This document shows positions 23,668 to 54,541 of a stretch of 64,000 bases of DNA, piece by piece. The position numbers and the translations under genes are program-made. Each line of letters begins with the position of its first letter. The stretch's first letter is position 1. This DNA comes from Thermococcus sp. EP1 (GTDB lineage Archaea; Methanobacteriota_B; Thermococci; Thermococcales; Thermococcaceae), in contig NZ_JXCG01000003.1 in assembly GCF_001317345.1 (NCBI RefSeq), forward strand, positions 243,850 through 307,849, read 5' to 3'. The notes under the pieces are model-generated. The model was given only the letters and a program-made list of their open reading frames with translations. It was not told the origin of the DNA and did no database searches.

Positions 23668-23711
23668 TTGGAAGTTATAAGTTAAGACTTAAAAGTTAAA
23701 AGGTGGAAAAG

Positions 23712-24902
23712 ATGAGAGAATTTAAGCGCTTAACTCCTTACAAAGAAGCCCTTGAAATGATGTTAAACGATATTGAGGAAGTAAAAGAGGTTGAGGAACT
23801 TCCTTTAGACAATGCTCTTGGAAGAGTTCTTGGAGAGGACATTGTATCTCCAATAGACCTGCCACCGTTCAACCGTTCTGCTGTGGATGGGTATGCCATT
23901 AGAGCGGAAGATACTTTTCAAGCAAGGGAATATGCTCCAATTGAGCTTGAGGTAATTGATGAAATTACTGCAGGGATGGAAAGTGAGAAGGAAATTACAA
24001 ATGGTAAGGCAATAAGACTCATGACTGGTAATAAAATGCCCAATGGAGCAAATGCTGTTATTATGCAAGAGTATGCAAAAAGAGAGGAAAATAAGATTTA
24101 CGTACTCAGGCCTGTTGCTCCAGGAGAGAATGTTGCATTTAAAGGAGAAGACGTTAAGAAAGGTGAGGTTATTCTCAAGAAAGGCCAAATACTTAGGCCC
24201 CAAGATCTCTCAATGCTTAAGGCTTTAGGATTTAAAACTGTCAAAGTTAAAAGAAAACCAAAAGTTGGAATAATTGTCACTGGGGACGAGCTAATAGAAG
24301 ATCTCAGCGAGAAGGCTTTGGAAAGTGGGAAGATTCTTGATAGTAATTCAACGATGCTTAAGGGGCTTGTTAGAGATTACTTTAGTGAGCCAGTTTTTTA
24401 TGGGGTAATTCCGGATGATGAAGAATTAATCAGAGCAACCTTGGAAAGGGCAAAATGTGAATGTGATCTTGTTTTGATAACCGGCGGAAGCGCTTTTGGA
24501 GAAAAGGATTATGCCCACAAATTCGTTAAACTTCTTTTCCATGGGTGCACGAATAAACCCGGAAGGCCTATAGGGTATGGAGAGAGGGTTTTTGTCATGA
24601 GTGGCTATCCCTCTGCAGTGTTTGCTCAGTTTCACCTCTATGTTAAGTATGCACTAGCCAAGCTCGCTGGAGCTAATTACAAGCCAATAAAAATCAAAGC
24701 GACCTTGATGGCCAAAGTACCCTCGTCCCTTGGAAGACACGAATTTGTGAAGGTTTATTACGAAGATGGCAAAGCTCATCCAATACGAAAGAAAGGAAGT
24801 GGAATAATAAGTGCTCTGGTAGAAAGTAATGGTTACATAGAAGTTCCAGAGGACAGTGAGGGGTATAAAGAGGGAGAAGATGTGTGGGTGACATTGTATT
24901 AG
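23712..24902 (+). CDS. moeA: MoeA molybdopterin molybdotransferase (tungsten cofactor)
   Basis: Inserts molybdate or tungstate into adenylylated pterin. Seen: PPFNRSAVDGYAIRAEDT near residue 55, RLMTGNKMPNGANAVIMQE, the MoaB-like domain with GIIVTGDELIE and TGGSAFGEKDY, and the C-terminal MoeA beta-barrel to the end. Thermococcales often have two MoeA paralogues, one each for tungsten and molybdenum; I cannot tell which this is. AGGTGG ahead of ATG 23712 sets the start. The same frame stays open for 33 codons after the stop codon. Confidence 0.95.
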   Translation: MREFKRLTPYKEALEMMLNDIEEVKEVEELPLDNALGRVLGEDIVSPIDLPPFNRSAVDGYAIRAEDTFQAREYAPIELEVIDEITAGMESEKEITNGKAIRLMTGNKMPNGANAVIMQEYAKREENKIYVLRPVAPGENVAFKGEDVKKGEVILKKGQILRPQDLSMLKALGFKTVKVKRKPKVGIIVTGDELIEDLSEKALESGKILDSNSTMLKGLVRDYFSEPVFYGVIPDDEELIRATLERAKCECDLVLITGGSAFGEKDYAHKFVKLLFHGCTNKPGRPIGYGERVFVMSGYPSAVFAQFHLYVKYALAKLAGANYKPIKIKATLMAKVPSSLGRHEFVKVYYEDGKAHPIRKKGSGIISALVESNGYIEVPEDSEGYKEGEDVWVTLY

Positions 24903-25001
24903 ATCTTTACAAGGTATTCAGATGAAGGCATGGAAAAATATGAAGTAGTGCAGAGGAAGAACATTGAAGGCCTCAAAAAGTTTGAAAGTTGGGAAACTTA
25001 G
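24903..25001 (+). other. Open stretch after the moeA stop, possible gene remnant
   Basis: In the moeA frame, 32 codons follow its stop before the next one. An ATG at 24930 would start a 23-residue peptide (MEKYEVVQRKNIEGLKKFES). It looks protein-like but no family is recognisable. It lies right at the left edge of the compositionally foreign region, so it may be a truncated gene. Confidence 0.25.
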
Positions 25002-25042
25002 GGTACCAAAAACTTAAAATATTGGGACCCTTAATTTTACAC

Positions 25043-26350
25043 ATGTTGGACAAAACATTCCTCAAAAGGTATATAGTTGGATTCCATGAGAGGGACTTCA
25101 GCGGAATAATTCCAAGAGAGCTCAGGGTAGAGGCCATTCCCAACAGAGCCACGGTTATTATCGGGCCGAGAAGGGCTGGAAAGACCTATTACTTGCTCTC
25201 CCTCGTTGATAAGGAGAACCCTGAGAGATATCTCTATGTAGACTTTGAGCATCCGATCTTCCACCCTATGACTCCCACCGACTTCCTGGCCGTTCTTGAC
25301 GCCTATCACGAGCTCTATCCGAAGATAAAGCATCCAATAGTTATGCTAGATGAGGTTCAAGCCGTTCCTGACTGGGAGAGAATAGTACGCTATCTCCTCG
25401 ATGGGGGTTATACCGTTTACATTACGGGTTCTTCCTCAAAGCTTCTCTCAAGAGAGGTCGCCACCCATCTGCGCGGTCGGTCCCTTACCTATACACTGTT
25501 ACCCCTTTCATTTAGGGAGTTTCTCAGATTTAAAAGAGTGGATTATAGAGGAAGGGATTTCTACAGGAATTACACCCAGATTTCTCGGCTCCTTGAAGAG
25601 TATCTCCACTATGGAGCGTATCCGGAGGTTGCTCTCTCCTCAGAAGGTGTTAAAGATAACATACTGAAGGACTATCTTGACGTACTGATCAAGAAGGATG
25701 TCCTCGAACGTCACAGGATCAAAAACATCCACCTGCTGAACGAACTACTCTATTTTTCACTCCACAGCTATTCAAAATACGTCTCCTTTGACTCACTTTA
25801 CAGGCTCTTCAAAGGTCGGTTGAAGGTCACTAAAAGGACTATTGCAAATTACTTCTCCTACCTTGAGGAAGCCTTTGCCCTCTTTCTCGTGAGGAAGTAC
25901 GAACGTTCCCCCAAGGCCCGTATAGTTGCTCCAAGAAAGCTTTACCTGATTGACACAGGCCTCTCAATTTTTGGTTCAAAGGATTTGGGAAGAGACATGG
26001 AGAACGTCGTTTTTCTTGAGCTTTTGAGAAGAACATCGGGTAACCCAGCAATGAAGGTAACCTACTGGAAGAGTTCTCAGGGACATGAAGTTGATTTTGT
26101 AATCTCAGAGCATGGAAGGGTCAATGAGCTAATACAAGTGAGCGTCAAGACAATCGATGAAAAAACAAGGAGAAGGGAACTTCTGGCATTGCTCCACGCA
26201 TCAGAGAAGCTTGGTTGTGAGAAACTGACCCTCATAACGTTGGACGAAGAGGGAATCGAGGATATCTCGCTCTATGGAATGAAGGGCAGAGTCAAGATGG
26301 TTCCCCTGGTGAAGTGGCTCTTGGGACTCTCGACGGGTTTTGAGGAGTAA
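25043..26350 (+). CDS. AAA ATPase of the AAA_14/DUF4143 type
   Basis: A 435-residue archaeal ATPase. Walker A is IIGPRRAGKTYYLLSL near residue 45, Walker B VMLDEVQAVPDWE, followed by ITGSSSKLLSREVATHLRGRS (sensor and arginine finger). The second half carries the DUF4143 nuclease-like fold with FLELLRRTSGNPAMKVTYWKSSQGHEVDFVI, where the E...EVDFVI acidic residues recall a PD-(D/E)XK site. Such ATPases are common, mobile and poorly understood; many sit with toxin-antitoxin or mobile genes. GC is higher than in the neighbours. The start ATG follows TATA-like ACTTAAAATATT and could be leaderless or nearly so. Confidence 0.85.
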   Translation: MLDKTFLKRYIVGFHERDFSGIIPRELRVEAIPNRATVIIGPRRAGKTYYLLSLVDKENPERYLYVDFEHPIFHPMTPTDFLAVLDAYHELYPKIKHPIVMLDEVQAVPDWERIVRYLLDGGYTVYITGSSSKLLSREVATHLRGRSLTYTLLPLSFREFLRFKRVDYRGRDFYRNYTQISRLLEEYLHYGAYPEVALSSEGVKDNILKDYLDVLIKKDVLERHRIKNIHLLNELLYFSLHSYSKYVSFDSLYRLFKGRLKVTKRTIANYFSYLEEAFALFLVRKYERSPKARIVAPRKLYLIDTGLSIFGSKDLGRDMENVVFLELLRRTSGNPAMKVTYWKSSQGHEVDFVISEHGRVNELIQVSVKTIDEKTRRRELLALLHASEKLGCEKLTLITLDEEGIEDISLYGMKGRVKMVPLVKWLLGLSTGFEE

Positions 26351-26390
26351 CCTTTATTTTCTTTTAGGTTAATTTTCTAAGGTGGTGTCT

Positions 26391-28007
26391 TTGTCGCTTC
26401 TGGCTTTGACAGGGATGCTCATCTTCGAGGGTAAGAAGACTCTATACTACCCAAACCCCGGAGAGAACGAACTCGTCATCTCCGTCTCCGAAGATCTGGA
26501 AGAGTGCAAGACGGGAACGATGAGCATCACGATAGAAGACGAACCACGGGAGAAAGATATAACCTACACCATCGTAATCCGCCCGCTGGAGGTGAAGTTC
26601 GATCGCCTCGTCACCGCCCTCACCTGCCACGACTTCCGCCTGAACGAGCTGGACCAGGCGGCACCCAGAACGGTCCTTGCGGCGGCAGTGAGGCAGGATA
26701 AGACGAAGATCTGCACCTACGCATCCAGCAACACGGACGAGATTGCGGGGAAAGAATACACCTGGAATGTTGAGCGCTCCTCCGTCCTGACCTACGTGGC
26801 GAAGAAGGGTGACAAGGAGGCGTTCAGGATCATCTTCCCGGTGAAGAACGGAAAGAGCAAGCCGGTGGTGTGGGTGAAGGACATTCCAAAGGACAACGCT
26901 TGCGACGAGGTAAAGAACAGGATCTTCACGGCGGACTACAAGCAGAAGTATCAGAACTACAACCTCCACCTCGTGATCAACGGCAATGACTGCCTGCCGA
27001 AGTACGGACACGCGGAGAAGACAGAGCTGAGCAGAGCAATGACTTACGAAAACGCGCTAATATATGGGGGACTCGGTGCTGCCACGTGTCTCACAGTGAC
27101 ATACGCTTGTGGTGCGCTATCATTAGATGCGAAGAGTATAGCAACAGGAGTATTTACATGTAGCATAGGACCTTTGATGGGAACTGCCCTCACATTCGCA
27201 TCCGCAAGAGCGGGGCTTGAAGAATCCTGGAAAGCCCCCGCAGCATCGGGAGGCATTTTGACAGTGGCAGGAATCGGAGTGGGGGCGAGAGCATACTGGA
27301 AAACCCAAGAAATTGCAAGAATCAAAAAAATCGACGAACTAACAAGCTTGCCAAAAGTACAGAAAAGTGAAGGGGTGCTCTTCAGCGTTGCAGGAGGAAC
27401 TGTAAAGAGAGGGAGGGGTACCATTGCAAGTCAAGAATCATTGGCTGAGGTACTATCGCAAAAGGAGGTGCCAAAAATCCTAGCAGAAGAAGGTGCTGGC
27501 AACCTAGACGACGCGGTGAAAGCACTCAAGAAAGCAGGCGCATCAGACGACGTGATCGAGTACTTTGAAGAACTGAAGACTCTAAGAGATTACGCGAAGA
27601 AGGCACAGATGGATGATGTGGCAAAGCAATTAGATGATTTCGTTAAAGAGATAAAAGGCGCCAAGACAGCTGAAACTATCGTAAAAGCAATAGAGGATAC
27701 AGATAGCACACTCGCGAATCTCGGATTCAAGAACGTCAATGACCTCTGGAAAGCAATAACTGACAAACTAGAGGGCACCTTGGAGAAACTCAAGGATAAA
27801 AAGTTCCTCTGTGGGGCGGCGGGCGCGATCGCAGGTGCAATAACATCTTCGATAACATTCATGGCAACAACCGGAGATGTAGATTACCTCACAGTTGCAA
27901 TAAATCCCGGATCTGTCGCGACCATATCCACGGAGGGCGGAATCCTATGGGCGCATGAGGGCTGTATAAAGGTAAACGGAGCTACATGTCCTGGGCACAG
28001 ATGGTAG
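26391..28007 (+). CDS. Large unknown membrane protein of the GC-rich cassette
   Basis: Not recognised. About 538 residues from a TTG start preceded by AAGGTGGTG; an ATG at 26415 is the alternative. A short N-terminal hydrophobic segment is followed by a beta-rich domain (residues about 20-210) with isolated cysteines that suggest disulfides and an extracytoplasmic site. Next come three hydrophobic glycine/alanine-rich segments (YGGLGAATCLTVTYACGAL, ATGVFTCSIGPLMGTAL, ASGGILTVAGIGVGA). A helical charged region spans about residues 310-485 and another hydrophobic segment (LCGAAGAIAGAITSSITFMA) precedes a tail with two cysteines. GC rises to about 68% in 26581-26640 against about 35% in ordinary genes here, indicating transfer. 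Confidence 0.78.
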   Translation: MSLLALTGMLIFEGKKTLYYPNPGENELVISVSEDLEECKTGTMSITIEDEPREKDITYTIVIRPLEVKFDRLVTALTCHDFRLNELDQAAPRTVLAAAVRQDKTKICTYASSNTDEIAGKEYTWNVERSSVLTYVAKKGDKEAFRIIFPVKNGKSKPVVWVKDIPKDNACDEVKNRIFTADYKQKYQNYNLHLVINGNDCLPKYGHAEKTELSRAMTYENALIYGGLGAATCLTVTYACGALSLDAKSIATGVFTCSIGPLMGTALTFASARAGLEESWKAPAASGGILTVAGIGVGARAYWKTQEIARIKKIDELTSLPKVQKSEGVLFSVAGGTVKRGRGTIASQESLAEVLSQKEVPKILAEEGAGNLDDAVKALKKAGASDDVIEYFEELKTLRDYAKKAQMDDVAKQLDDFVKEIKGAKTAETIVKAIEDTDSTLANLGFKNVNDLWKAITDKLEGTLEKLKDKKFLCGAAGAIAGAITSSITFMATTGDVDYLTVAINPGSVATISTEGGILWAHEGCIKVNGATCPGHRW

Positions 28008-28056
28008 GAAGAACGATTAAAAACCACGGAAGAGTAGTATCAATGAGGGGTGTGGG

Positions 28057-29436
28057 ATGATCGGAATGTTCATCTTCGGAGGGAAGAAAAAGGAGGAAAA
28101 AAAGAGAAGGGTAGAGGAGAAGAAACTCCGACTGCCGGAATCTGTTTTGGTCGCGATACAAAAGTTCCACGCACGTGCAAACAAAGGATATATAAAACTG
28201 GTTGCGGAGGCCGATCCTGAAAAAAATGAAAGTAGGGCCATGAGAATAATGGATGCAGAGCAACGGCATGAAGAGGGAAATATGTATATATCGGCACTAA
28301 AACAAAAAAAATACCAAAAAGTGGGTGCGTTCACAAAATTTGAAGAAAGACCCCCAAGAGGTCTACCCATCGTGCACGGATTCCTCGCACTCCTTCTCTC
28401 CTATCACAGCGGAAAAGTCCTCCCGGAAATTGGGCACGCCGTAGGCGACGCCATTGACAAGTATTACTTCGCAGGAGAACGAGATATTAGCGATATCAAA
28501 AAGAACCCTGAGGAGTTTGCAGCGCTGGTCGCGAGAGAGTTAAAGGAAAACAACATCATAACTGACGAGGAAAAGGCAAAACAGGCAATACTTAGAGGGC
28601 TTCCTACGATCATAAGAATTGCAGAGAAGCTATGGCCAGAGAACCACGATCCAGAACACCTCGAAAAAGCATCTAACGCATTGTATAAAGGCGTAGAAGA
28701 TCCAATCCACATCCTTAGGCAAGTAGGCATCGACATAGAGCCAGAACTGGAAGAATTCCGGCAGCTACTCGCGGAGATTAGTGGGAAGGAGGTAAGGCCG
28801 AAATTCCCCGAAACGAAGAAAGCAGTCGAGGAGGAGCTCAGGGCAAAGGGGGTGCCAGAAGAACAGATAAAGGTGGTGGCGGCACGACTGGCAACAGCTG
28901 TTTGGCTGGAGAACCAGCTCCGCGCGCTGAAGGAATCATCCACTGCACGACTCTACGGTGGGGTGTCGCTCATAGAGATCAGAAACCTGAGGGAAAAAAT
29001 AGTGGCGAAAAAGCACGTGGCGGAGAAGGCAATGGAGCACATAGAGAAGTACTGGATGAAGGGAGCAATACTGCCCCTAGAGGAAAGGCACATCGACCCG
29101 AAGATGTTGCCATTCGTCAGGGAACATGCAGCAGGTATGATGAAGGATATAAAGAACCTCGCCGAACGGGTGAAGAGAGGGGAGTTGGACCCGCAGGACG
29201 TTAGAAACATTCTGACAATAGAGAGGGATCTGCTGGACGTAACCCATGAAGCGATAGAGAGAACGATTGGGAACCCAGAAAACCTCATGAAAAACAGAGG
29301 CGCAAGGGGAGTTGAAGATAAGTTTATGATAAAGAGGGAAGCGATTGAGGCCATGCACATAAAGCTAAAACCGCACTTCGAAACGGCGAGAGTGAAGGTT
29401 CCCGTAAAAGGAGATCTAATATTCAACGAGCTTTAG
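28057..29436 (+). CDS. Large unknown helical protein of the GC-rich cassette
   Basis: Not recognised. The 459-residue protein begins MIGMFIFGGKKKEEKKRR, a short hydrophobic start followed by a very basic stretch. It is otherwise almost wholly helical and charged, with one moderately hydrophobic segment (GLPIVHGFLALLLSYHSG) near residue 110 and no cysteines. The start has GAGGGGTG four bases upstream. It follows the preceding gene after 49 bases on the same strand and shares its high GC and codon use, so the two were probably acquired together and act together. No catalytic motif is seen; a structural or scaffold role is possible. Confidence 0.78.
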   Translation: MIGMFIFGGKKKEEKKRRVEEKKLRLPESVLVAIQKFHARANKGYIKLVAEADPEKNESRAMRIMDAEQRHEEGNMYISALKQKKYQKVGAFTKFEERPPRGLPIVHGFLALLLSYHSGKVLPEIGHAVGDAIDKYYFAGERDISDIKKNPEEFAALVARELKENNIITDEEKAKQAILRGLPTIIRIAEKLWPENHDPEHLEKASNALYKGVEDPIHILRQVGIDIEPELEEFRQLLAEISGKEVRPKFPETKKAVEEELRAKGVPEEQIKVVAARLATAVWLENQLRALKESSTARLYGGVSLIEIRNLREKIVAKKHVAEKAMEHIEKYWMKGAILPLEERHIDPKMLPFVREHAAGMMKDIKNLAERVKRGELDPQDVRNILTIERDLLDVTHEAIERTIGNPENLMKNRGARGVEDKFMIKREAIEAMHIKLKPHFETARVKVPVKGDLIFNEL

Positions 29437-29442
29437 TGTTCC

Positions 29443-29597
29443 CTAAGCTTTTTCAAACAAATCCCTAGTCTCGAAGACGAAGTAGTCTTCGCGCTCAAAA
29501 GACCTTGAGGGCCAAAGTTGTCTTTCTTACGCGCCGTTCACCGTAGATTATAATCAGTTCAGCTTCCTCACTCTCTTAATATTCAAGGATTGCGGAT
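29443..29597 (-). pseudogene. Remnant of a second archaeal P-loop ATPase
   Basis: On the minus strand one can read AILEY, a stop, then ESEEAELIIIYGERRVRKTT and LALKVF, then a frameshift into REDYFVFETRDLFEKA and a stop. This is the N-terminal Walker A region of the archaeal DEXX/AAA ATPase family (normally YGRRRVGKTT); here the loop reads RVRKTT, with G replaced by R. A stop, a frameshift and loss of everything downstream make it a clear relic. It flanks the GC-rich cassette on the side opposite the intact ATPase. Confidence 0.75.
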
Positions 29598-29646
29598 CAA
29601 AACCCTGGTGGAAAAAGTAAAAAGAGTTTGCAATCTAAATGCAAAT

Positions 29647-31033
<1,387 letters not shown>

Positions 31034-31820: not shown

Positions 31821-31897
31821 GGGCCGGTAGCTCAGTTTGGGAGAGCGCTGGCTTCGCAAGCCAGAGGCCGCGGGTTCAAATCCCGCCCGGTCCACCA
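31821..31897 (+). tRNA. tRNA-Ala (CGC anticodon)
   Basis: A complete cloverleaf with encoded CCA. The acceptor GGGCCGG pairs with CCGGTCC and contains the G3-U70 wobble that defines alanine tRNAs. The D arm is AGCTCAGTTTGGGAGAGC; the anticodon stem CTGGC/GCCAG encloses TTCGCAA, anticodon CGC. The T arm carries GGTTCAAATCC. CTTTTTAAG about 30 bases upstream is a suitable TATA box. No intron. Confidence 0.97.
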
Positions 31898-52272: not shown

Positions 52273-52791
52273 TCAGAGCTTGGAACTTAAAAGTTTTGAA
52301 GTCTCTTTAAGCTGGGAATATCCAGACTCGAGATAGGTGTCTCCTTCCTTTACATATCCATCAGCATAGGCACTCCATGCTCTGTTTAAGTGTCTCTCTG
52401 CCTTGCTGAAGCTTGTCATGACTTCCCCATAAAACCTGATGCCTTCAATTCTAAGTGGTTGGGCCTTCTCTGCAAAGGTCTCTAAAGTTTCAAGGATTTT
52501 TCCTAAGTGTTCTCTTGCCTTTTCTAAGTCCTTCTCTTTTTCTTCCATTATTTTTTCAATCTCTGCAATAGCGTTCTCCAGTGTTCTCTTGAGTTCTTCT
52601 TTTCCACCTTTGCCTTGAGCAGCACTCTGGTGGAGCTCTTCTTTCTCTCCTTGTCTTCTGAGCAATATTCCAACTCCCATGATAGCTAAACTACCTCCAA
52701 GTGCTGTCCAAAGTGGTGGATTTCTAGCTGAGGCTATAGCTCCTCCAACCAGTCCAATTGTGAGCATTATATTTCCGATAAATTTCTTCAT
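52273..52791 (-). CDS. Membrane-anchored coiled-coil protein next to OPT
   Basis: A 172-residue protein with two N-terminal membrane helices (NIMLTIGLVGGAIAS, LWTALGGSLAIMGVGILL) then RRQ and a long cytosolic coiled coil (LKRTLENAIAEIEKIMEEKE through about residue 110), ending in a helical domain. No family recognised. The start is the ATG after GAGGTGATAACA. It begins 10 bases after the OPT transporter stop on the same strand, so the two are cotranscribed and it might be an accessory subunit. Confidence 0.78.
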   Translation of the reverse strand: MKKFIGNIMLTIGLVGGAIASARNPPLWTALGGSLAIMGVGILLRRQGEKEELHQSAAQGKGGKEELKRTLENAIAEIEKIMEEKEKDLEKAREHLGKILETLETFAEKAQPLRIEGIRFYGEVMTSFSKAERHLNRAWSAYADGYVKEGDTYLESGYSQLKETSKLLSSKL

Positions 52792-52801
52792 TGTTATCAC
52801 C

Positions 52802-54541
52802 TCATGGGTGTAGTACTCCAGCTACAGTGAGCACTGCAAATAGTAATGTCATAGCAGCTTCTCCAACCATCAAACCTGCTGCAAATGGAAGGACTTTCTC
52901 AACGATGAATTCGTAACCCTTCTTTCTCTTTGCAACCTCGTTTACAACACAGCCAATTCCGTACGGAATGATATAGAGCATTGGAAGGTACATTGAGAGT
53001 CCTACTAGTACTCCAAGTCCGGGAACTCCGCTAAGTGATAGAAGGAACCCAAGTAGTCCACCTGCTATGAACTTGTCTATTGGTACACTTCCACCAAGTA
53101 CTGCTTCTACCATTGACTTAAGGGCCATGGCCTGAGGAGCTGGAACTTTGTCGTTTCCAATTCCATAGGCATTCCAAATAAGACCAACAACTGTTAGTGC
53201 GATTATTGGGCCTAACCAGCCAGTTAGGAGCTCAACCTTTTGTTGTCTTGATGGAACCGCACCTACCATGTGTCCAGTCTTAAGGTCTTGCATCATGTCT
53301 GCGGCTCCTGAAATGGCCACACCAACTGTTGCACCCATCAGGATTGTAAGTGGGACGTTCTTGTTGGTTAAGTAGAGAAGTATCATAACTGAGACGAGAG
53401 ACAAACCTGAAACTGGACTCCAGTCAGTCATTCCAGTGGACATTGCTACGAGGAGTGATGCAATGAAGATCCATGCGACCCCGATGAGTGCTGTGAGGAG
53501 GCTTCTTCCTAGGCCCAGGTTTCCGAGCTTGTAGGCTGTTACTAGAAGCAAGACAAAGGCAAATATAGCGCCCCCGATTAAGTAATGGATTGGAAGTTCT
53601 TCGTTGTGCCCGTTCTTGTCTTTAAACTTGCTTGCTTGTGCAAGACTTTTCATAGCTACTGCAATGACAGGTAGAGAAAGTATCAAACCAGCTATTGACC
53701 CTCCAAGGAGCATACCAATACCTAGTGGTCTTGTCATTGTGCCATATACATAACTACTTATTGCACTTCCTTGAACATCTGCTGGAATCCACCCAAGGCT
53801 CTTGACTACTGGAGTTATAATGTAGTAAGAGAGCACACCACCCGCAAGAACTATTAGACCATTTCTTCCTGTAATTAAACCCATACCAAATACCATGAGT
53901 GAGAGAGCAATTGTTAAGTTGACCCATTCTGGGAGATGAAGTGCTGCTCCTAAGTCCACAACTTCAGGTATAACATGTGGCAACCCAAAGATTGGGAACT
54001 GCTGAATGAGATAAATTACTGCGCTAAGAACCATACCAAAAAACAAAAGCCTTGCCTTTTCTATTCCACTTCCAGGAGTCTTAAGTATAGTAGCAACTGC
54101 AGTCCCTGTTGGGAACCTAAGTCTGTCTATTTCGATCATCTGCTTTCTAAGTGGGATTATGAATGTTATACCTAAGATGGCTCCAGCTGCAGTTGCTAGG
54201 AAGAAGTACAGGGTATTTATCTCCTGATGGAGTGACATTATGTAAAGTGCTGGGATTGTGAAAATGACACCTGATACTGAGATATTAACTGCTGAGGCAA
54301 CTGTCTGGACAATATTATTCTCTACTACCGTACCTTTCTTTAGGATACCTCTAAGAATTCCCCAACCTACTATTGCCGCTATGGCAGAGCCTCCTGAGGT
54401 AAAACCCATAATCATACCAGCATAAGTAAAGCTTGCAGCCATGAATGCTCCCCAAAGAACTCCTAAGACTATCGCAGCAGGTGTTACTTCTCTATAACTT
54501 TCTTCCCTCTTTGCGAGAGCTTGTCCAGCATATCTCTCCAT
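52802..54541 (-). CDS. OPT-family oligopeptide transporter
   Basis: A 579-residue oligopeptide/metal-chelate transporter with about fourteen to sixteen membrane helices. The family hallmarks are the opening YREVTPAAIVLGVLWGAFMAASFTYAGMIMGFT, the segment LRFPTGTAVATILKTPG, and MMQDLKTGHMVGAVPSRQQ near residue 420. In peptide-fermenting Thermococcales it probably imports oligopeptides. GGGGGTTGAAAA precedes the ATG. A pair of TGTACA boxes immediately upstream suggests operator control. Confidence 0.93.
   Translation of the reverse strand: MERYAGQALAKREESYREVTPAAIVLGVLWGAFMAASFTYAGMIMGFTSGGSAIAAIVGWGILRGILKKGTVVENNIVQTVASAVNISVSGVIFTIPALYIMSLHQEINTLYFFLATAAGAILGITFIIPLRKQMIEIDRLRFPTGTAVATILKTPGSGIEKARLLFFGMVLSAVIYLIQQFPIFGLPHVIPEVVDLGAALHLPEWVNLTIALSLMVFGMGLITGRNGLIVLAGGVLSYYIITPVVKSLGWIPADVQGSAISSYVYGTMTRPLGIGMLLGGSIAGLILSLPVIAVAMKSLAQASKFKDKNGHNEELPIHYLIGGAIFAFVLLLVTAYKLGNLGLGRSLLTALIGVAWIFIASLLVAMSTGMTDWSPVSGLSLVSVMILLYLTNKNVPLTILMGATVGVAISGAADMMQDLKTGHMVGAVPSRQQKVELLTGWLGPIIALTVVGLIWNAYGIGNDKVPAPQAMALKSMVEAVLGGSVPIDKFIAGGLLGFLLSLSGVPGLGVLVGLSMYLPMLYIIPYGIGCVVNEVAKRKKGYEFIVEKVLPFAAGLMVGEAAMTLLFAVLTVAGVLHP

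Follow-up and report, generated by a model that had tools for sequence, protein, structure and literature searches.

Among published systems, the nearest in style to the genes described here is VARTIG (variable Thermococcales Ig module). In the portion of PMC8416519 covered, it is reported from Thermococcales only, with a patchy distribution, shuffling between species, many membrane or secreted proteins and an unknown function, and it is likened to polymorphic toxins. Its core is a large arCOG07710 immunoglobulin (Ig) protein at the 5' end of the operon, whose C-terminal Ig domain is variable and whose tail has the motif D[ND]NxxxG[GD]. Other Thermococcus-specific genes, arCOG10027, arCOG10066 and arCOG10028, are presented in the covered part of PMC4158269 as secreted, clustered paralogues in dark-matter islands. 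We analysed a stretch of 64,000 nucleotides from Thermococcus sp. EP1 (contig NZ_JXCG01000003.1, positions 243,850 to 307,849; hereafter the window), in which two adjacent genes, A and B, lie between moeA and dys, together with related loci (L numbers) from other genomes (G numbers). We read A and B, at somewhat less than even odds (about 0.45), as a phase-variable, polymorphic two-protein system in which the C-terminal half of A would be matched to the N-terminal module of B, likely for inter-strain conflict or recognition.

With regard to repeats, an excess of poly(A) tracts in coding genes was reported for part of 18 archaeal genomes and the tracts were proposed as a general regulatory device (PMC2831843, portion covered). 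Microsatellite-like regions have been sought in variable gene families, Thermococcales included, and the covered portion of that work does not name the A-B family (PMC9425974). Our search of the open-licence literature returned no report of TA-repeat switching in Thermococcales and, with locus tags included, no paper on the A-B gene family. A, B or the related family F13 may possibly be catalogued already under an arCOG number.

The C-terminal half of A and the N-module of B vary together

In B, an N-module (Bn) of about 245 residues and conserved hinges are combined with a C-module, which is long (Bc) in some loci and short (Cs) in others. The AlphaFold2 model of B is mostly helical (predicted local distance difference test, pLDDT, 83; predicted template modelling score, pTM, 0.56) and gave no significant fold match; the AhlC/MakE fold of alpha-pore-forming toxins was considered for its C-module. 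A has 538 residues if translated from the TTG at position 26391. Its outer module (Ae) contains cysteines and precedes a half (Ac) with hydrophobic segments and a helical stretch. As simple hydropathy places such segments at residues 225-243 and 475-493, A is predicted to be a membrane protein. F13 is a related second modular partner family that can replace B behind A.

Nine loci with A and a partner (eight A-B, one A-F13) were compared by Mantel tests, with A split at residue 212 and with the N-terminal part of the L041 A lying in another frame. The similarity of Ac co-varied with that of Bn in the other protein (r = 0.87, p = 0.0005), and the values for halves of the same protein were r = 0.10 (p = 0.23) for Bn-Bc and r = 0.40 (p = 0.06) for Ae-Ac. 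Between L037 and L041 the centre is shared, with Ac at 68% and Bn at 75%, and Bc is not (30%). For L035 and L037 it is the outer modules that agree, Ae at 62% and Bc at 96%, with Ac and Bn at only 25% each. The Ac-Bn correlation stayed at r = 0.78-0.87 (p = 0.002-0.014) when L041, L042, both of these, or L037 and L041 together were left out. The C-terminal half of A and the N-module of B vary together, and the outer modules are largely independent.

Composition marks the same block, as the change points in GC content at third codon positions (GC3) agree with the co-variation of Ac and Bn. In the window A, GC3 falls from 0.80 over codons 1-217 to 0.44, with the change point at codon 217 (likelihood ratio 69.9, reached in none of 2000 shuffles); in each of five neighbouring genes used as controls, more than 1000 of 2000 shuffles reached the observed value. 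Among the 32 genes tested from the relatives, 22 had a change point that no more than 5 of 500 shuffles reached, its direction being high-to-low in all five A genes and low-to-high in all 17 B or F13 genes. The F13 copies are located at L039 5866-8082, L042 9988-11898 and L123 1017-3038, and the two long ones share the low-to-high GC3 pattern.

Repeat tracts and frame lesions in B

The retrieved loci contained 71 N-module groups, of which 14 had no N1 reference and 10 fell below a score of 300 or 180 codons, leaving 47 N1-type modules. Tracts were defined as (TA)3 or longer or a homopolymer of at least 6, and a lesion in the frameshift-aware alignment was counted at a tract if within 8 nt of it. 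The 47 modules had 59 frame lesions, 39 of them at tracts against 5.7 expected (p = 1e-25), and two stop codons. Lesions were at tracts only in 27 loci, at tracts and elsewhere in five, and only elsewhere in nine; the six intact loci, the window included, are references or exact matches to them, their intactness being read from the reading frame. TA tracts of at least three units reach nine units, the longest in the in-frame gene of L035, and were more frequent than in synonymous codon shuffles (37 versus 22.5 ± 3.9; maximum 35 in 300 shuffles). The intact genes had seven TA tracts against 3.7 expected (p = 0.026).

As a control for sequencing error and general decay, ATPase_2 neighbours were grouped in the same way as B (50 groups, 10 dropped). 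Thirty-five of 40 were intact, and the others accounted for two frameshifts, none at tracts, and three stop codons; tract coverage was 0.017 in these ATPases and 0.097 in Bn. An earlier version of the control (33 of 38 intact) took only matches covering 85% of the reference, which favours intact genes; redoing it with merged pieces left our odds for the readings as they were. Between lesioned alleles the ratio of non-synonymous to synonymous substitution rates (dN/dS) was mostly 0.04-0.20, i.e. purifying selection, for example 0.08 at a dS of 0.45 for L099-L113; L103-L105 was an exception (0.54), and pairs with saturated dS give no ratio. We rate repeat slippage as plausible and not higher, because the replicative polymerases of Pyrococcus abyssi slip in vitro, yet PCNA inhibits the slippage (PMC4134008, portion covered).

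The state of B differed with the presence of A. An open B was found in six of nine A-linked loci, compared to three of 43 N1-type A-less loci (Fisher p = 0.0003). Restricted to the N1 type, the counts were 3/4 and 3/43 (p = 0.005), and with the other N-module types, classed by hand, 6/9 and 7/50 (p = 0.002). The nine A-linked loci were assessed in two ways, four through frameshift-aware alignment and the other five through open reading frames together with tblastn pieces. L044, where A is cut by the contig end and B is open, is not among the nine; when L044 was added and L045 and L052 were removed, B was open in 7/10 against 5/48 (p = 0.0002). The hand-classed A-less loci were open in L043, L045, L049 and L052 and broken in L051, the second copy of L101 and the first copy of L102, with L082 and L124 outside this classing.

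Distribution, operon types and insertion site

Neither A nor B matched a Pfam, PHROG or NCBIfam family above cut-off or gave a significant PADLOC result, and the Pfam search for Ig or CARDB domains was negative for the window A and for four of its relatives. The preliminary description of the locus had reported no recognised family, which holds for Pfam, PHROG and NCBIfam, but a family confined to Thermococcaceae does exist among the genomes searched. Its claim that homology is absent was not supported: a profile of A has matches in 12 of 94 family genomes (a single A protein in 9) and a single B protein in 37 of the 94. When the 115 genomes of the phylum were searched with a B profile, 45 had matches, each of them a member of Thermococcaceae. 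The named protein relatives are from Thermococcus or Thermococcaceae; the plasmid collection searched gave no match, nor did phages or viral contigs for B. In ten of the 12 A genomes, A lies at most 140 bp upstream of a modular partner, B in nine and F13 in one, and the remaining two (G077, G114) have only A fragments, 1-2 kb from B. Small genes near A or B loci (L035 8810-9435, L042 11995-12641, L045 9942-10235) are presumably nucleotidyltransferase/HEPN-like, and PIN-domain genes (Pfam) are found beside B in L035.

B genes occur in two types of operon. Relatives that lack A have the same kind of N-module followed by a short tail, and in many of them an ATPase gene directly precedes it. Among the 49 short-tail loci, a same-strand ATPase was located upstream within 150 bp in 24 and within 700 bp in 28, A was never found within 700 bp, and 31 had the conserved leader. 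The 18 long-tail loci had A upstream in eight and an ATPase in three, locus L124 being counted in both tail classes. Modules reassort in the ATPase-linked type, as judged from 19 loci (Bn-Cs r = 0.09; ATPase-Cs r = 0.06; ATPase-Bn r = 0.20, p = 0.022). The leader in the window is 75-88% identical in DNA to the 5' ends of A-less B genes at seven loci, and across 32 leaders it is conserved as coding sequence (majority base 0.90, 0.99 and 0.73 at codon positions 1, 2 and 3). Since this leader is fused to A behind an ATPase, the window locus is a hybrid, in which the ATPase and leader of the A-less type are joined to an A-B pair (Table 1).

Table 1. Coordinates of the cassette and its flanking genes in the window
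Feature	Position	Strand	Basis or remark
moeA	23703-24902	+	flanking gene
Insert	24903-29646		between moeA and dys, ~4.7 kb gap here
DUF4143-type P-loop ATPase (AAA_14 + DUF4143), intact	25043-26350	+	PADLOC candidate PDC-S01
B-type leader (ribosome-binding stretch and hydrophobic N-terminus ending in lysines)	26381-26438	+	in-frame fusion to A
Gene A, predicted membrane protein	26382-28007	+	open reading frame; family alignment A1; simple hydropathy only
A outer module (Ae), codons ~20-217	26439-27032	+	GC3 change point at codon 217
Central block, C-terminal half of A (Ac) and N-module of B (Bn)	27033-28800	+	Mantel co-variation; GC3 0.44 and 0.47
Gene B, predicted mostly helical, 459 residues	28057-29436	+	N-module 28057-28800, long C-module 28801-29433
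TA tract in B N-module, in frame here	28285-28291	+	sequence; TA tracts of relatives have frame lesions in the same region
A8 tract in B N-module, in frame here	28304-28311	+	sequence; A tracts of relatives are lesioned in the same region
ATPase_2 remnant, degenerate Walker A motif	29504-29584	-	local score against ATPase_2 relatives
dys	29647-30714	-	flanking gene

The preliminary description had seen two long adjacent genes of raised GC beside an intact DUF4143-type ATPase, with a decayed ATPase on the right, and in these respects it was accurate. Both open reading frames were found. The 1 kb windows across 24.5-30 kb have a GC of 0.44-0.53, and almost everywhere else the 1 kb values are 0.35-0.43; for GC3, the ATPase, A and B lie at 0.53-0.59 and seven measured neighbours at 0.31-0.40. 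The intact ATPase exceeds the Pfam cut-offs for AAA_14 (120 bits, cut-off 27) and DUF4143 (74.6 bits, cut-off 28.1), and the minus-strand remnant has a best local score of 68 against a shuffle maximum of 51 (100 shuffles, scored against 12 ATPases only). The preliminary description had missed the block across the gene border, the mosaic structure of A, the leader fused to A and the tracts of repeats. A second stretch of raised GC (0.43-0.46) is present at 52500-54500 of the window, and a tRNA-Ala (CGC) at 31821-31897, downstream of dys.

The ATPases had been called mobile, a term that is fair as an association: A-less B genes are often behind such ATPases, and the window ATPase matches the candidate defence family PDC-S01 of PADLOC (321 bits, profile positions 27-408 of 412). 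An ATPase_2 relative at L048 matches PDC-S27 (135 bits). Six genomes contained 2-19 ATPase_2 genes each.

In the closest same-genus genome, G009, the protein matches of moeA and dys (96% identical) are only 10 bp apart, and the gap is 23 bp in G007 and 24 bp in G002. The six other same-genus genomes have 0.3 to 5.2 kb between the two genes: one or two ATPase_2 genes lie there in G012 and G010, pieces of ATPases in G005 and G011, and in G008 and G003 nothing matched the queries used. For archaeal ATPase genes this junction is a hotspot in the genus: four of these nine relatives have ATPase genes or pieces between moeA and dys, and the gap ranges from 10 bp to 5.2 kb. Because the junction is nearly empty in the closest relative, the cassette is supported as an acquired unit, in line with the original proposal; the short gaps in G007 and G002 agree with it. 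Orthologues at the same locus in most Thermococcales were not found, as A is restricted to the 12 genomes, and the other A loci retrieved adjoin different genes than the window locus.

A truncated B gene (L051 8907-9746, genome G115) lies on the opposite side of this gene pair, adjoining moaB-moeA. Different alleles were also observed at the same chromosomal site in different genomes: L036 and L049 beside a DNA polymerase B with intein, L038 and L041 at GINS/PCNA/TFS, and L035 and L040 at the POR operon and MetRS.

Readings of the A-B pair and comparison with known systems

If A and B are a phase-variable matched pair, A would sit in the membrane with B on its inner face, and Ac and Bn would likely be matched to each other. 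Slippage at the short repeats would likely toggle B reversibly on and off, recombination in the conserved outer modules would exchange the central block as a unit, and the B copies behind ATPases would be a mostly silent reservoir. We favour B as a costly partner that needs A and may stay closed where A is missing, given that an open B was seen in 6/9 A-linked against 3/43 A-less N1 loci. The pair would probably act in inter-strain conflict or in self/non-self recognition. The preliminary description had suggested a conflict, surface or symbiosis-related system; the conflict or recognition part is retained as our inference, and no evidence for a link to symbiosis was found. A broader version, which we put forward tentatively, is that of a new archaeal system with a two-gene specificity cassette, made up of Ac from the membrane protein and Bn from its partner and exchanged between species as one piece, with a partner that is phase-variable through microsatellites although the host is a hyperthermophile, and with ATPase-linked silent copies that may serve as a community-wide specificity reservoir.

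Several points weigh against the phase-variable pair. The co-variation is based on nine loci, and linkage of adjacent DNA can yield it with no selection for fit; Ae and Bc were also correlated (r = 0.36, p = 0.045), and Bn-Bc climbed to r = 0.64 (p = 0.0145) when L037 and L041 were removed. The GC3 change in the window B, from 0.47 to 0.62 at codon 233, is weak, being reached by 59 of 2000 shuffles, and 10 of the 32 genes of the relatives have no change point at the cut-off, four of these being A or F13 fragments. Some of the lesions, at 37-45% alignment identity, may be artefacts. Only the TA tracts exceed synonymous shuffling; poly-A/T tracts do not (87 versus 90.7), and they are rarer than expected in the six intact genes (5 versus 10.1). 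The proposed switching is deduced from alleles of different species, not of one population. Open B genes of other N-types occur in L043 and L049, which lack A, and in L045 and L052, where A is present only as adjacent fragments; in L036 and L037 A is open and B is broken. The structure model of A is useless (pLDDT 39), and its membrane placement comes from weak hydropathy alone, some relatives having one segment or none. No toxin, nuclease or receptor domain was recognised in A or B with Pfam, PHROG, NCBIfam or PADLOC.

The main rival explanation is a polymorphic toxin-immunity pair, with A as a membrane-active toxin with a variable C-terminal half, Bn as the cognate immunity and A-less B as orphan immunity. 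It would account for the linked variation of Ac and Bn and for the occurrence of B-type matches in more genomes than A (37 versus 12 of 94). The N-modules of the window, L035 and L039 share just 38-40% among themselves, and A-linked N-modules have close A-less relatives (L039-L090 91%, L035-L110 85%, L036-L048 83%, window-L043 73%), which fit orphan immunity or a reservoir alike. However, no toxin domain was found, and the B copies without A are nearly all out of frame, which is not expected of immunity genes. Plain immunity is disfavoured because of the skew in open B and because B is broken beside an open A in L036 and L037, and we consider a toxin-immunity pair unlikely. In another explanation the A-B pair is an expressed locus undergoing antigenic variation, for which the A-less copies are silent donors for gene conversion of the N-module. 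The many B-type copies per genome (with pieces included, G097 has 10 alignment matches and G085 and G093 have 6 each), the reassortment of modules in the ATPase-linked type (Bn-Cs r = 0.09) and the conserved leader and hinges, which could act as recombination flanks, are in keeping with such donors. Short-tail copies, however, hold Bn without Ac and so cannot change both sides of a matched pair, and apart from its short hydrophobic start B lacks any signal for surface display. Silent cassettes are very unlikely in our judgement.

The lesions themselves could also be explained in other ways. They may be the mark of decaying remnants of an old mobile family, the repeats being the first breakpoints of pseudogenes; 40 of 43 N1-type A-less copies are lesioned, and poly-A/T tracts are about as frequent as expected from codon use. 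We find such decay quite unlikely in view of just two stop codons in 47 loci, the low dN/dS between lesioned alleles (L103-L105 excepted) and a number of TA tracts above the maximum of 300 synonymous shuffles. Programmed recoding, in which the ribosome or RNA polymerase shifts frame at the tracts so that all 'broken' alleles are translated, would agree with purifying selection in pairs with the same lesion type, and A7 tracts are plausible slippery sites. It appears highly improbable, as different alleles would need shifts of different size and direction (steps of 1, 2, 4 and 5 nt), open alleles exist (6/47) and TA tracts are, to our knowledge, not known as slippery sites.

If the phase-variable reading is true, hyperthermophilic archaea diversify a two-protein system by microsatellite switching and cross-gene cassette exchange. 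The family would give the abundant archaeal ATPases, listed as defence candidates, a concrete partner, and the co-variation predicts which half-proteins should bind (Ac with Bn). The known families closest to these ATPases are Pfam DUF4143 and DUF234 and the PADLOC candidates PDC-S01, matched by the window ATPase, and PDC-S27, matched by the L048 ATPase; the difference is the modular partner gene directly behind the ATPase, an arrangement not described in the portion of the literature covered.

Like VARTIG, the A-B family is restricted to Thermococcales among the genomes searched, patchy and shuffled, with predicted membrane proteins. Unlike VARTIG, A ends without the D[ND]NxxxG[GD] motif in its last 15 residues (C-terminus read directly), the variable unit crosses the gene border and the partner B has repeat tracts; the portion of PMC8416519 covered mentions neither an ATPase link nor repeats. 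The arCOG10027, arCOG10066 and arCOG10028 clusters are similar by description in the covered part of PMC4158269, being Thermococcus-specific, secreted and clustered paralogues. With the polymorphic toxin systems (PMC3482391, portion covered) the family shares modular proteins, stand-alone modules and a variable half inherited with part of the adjacent gene, the last seen here as the Ac-Bn correlation over nine loci. It differs in that A-B has no recognised toxin or trafficking domain, B varies at both ends and most copies lacking A are out of frame. Phase-variable contingency loci (PMC11868660, portion covered) likewise have short repeats inside the reading frame, and a concentration of frame lesions at in-frame tracts was found in B (39/59 versus 5.7 expected). 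The A-B case differs from them in that a single gene family of a hyperthermophile has the tracts, its alleles change frame and TA microsatellites are among the repeats; the switching is what we infer. On this reading, A-B would parallel the bacterial diversification of surface and conflict genes.

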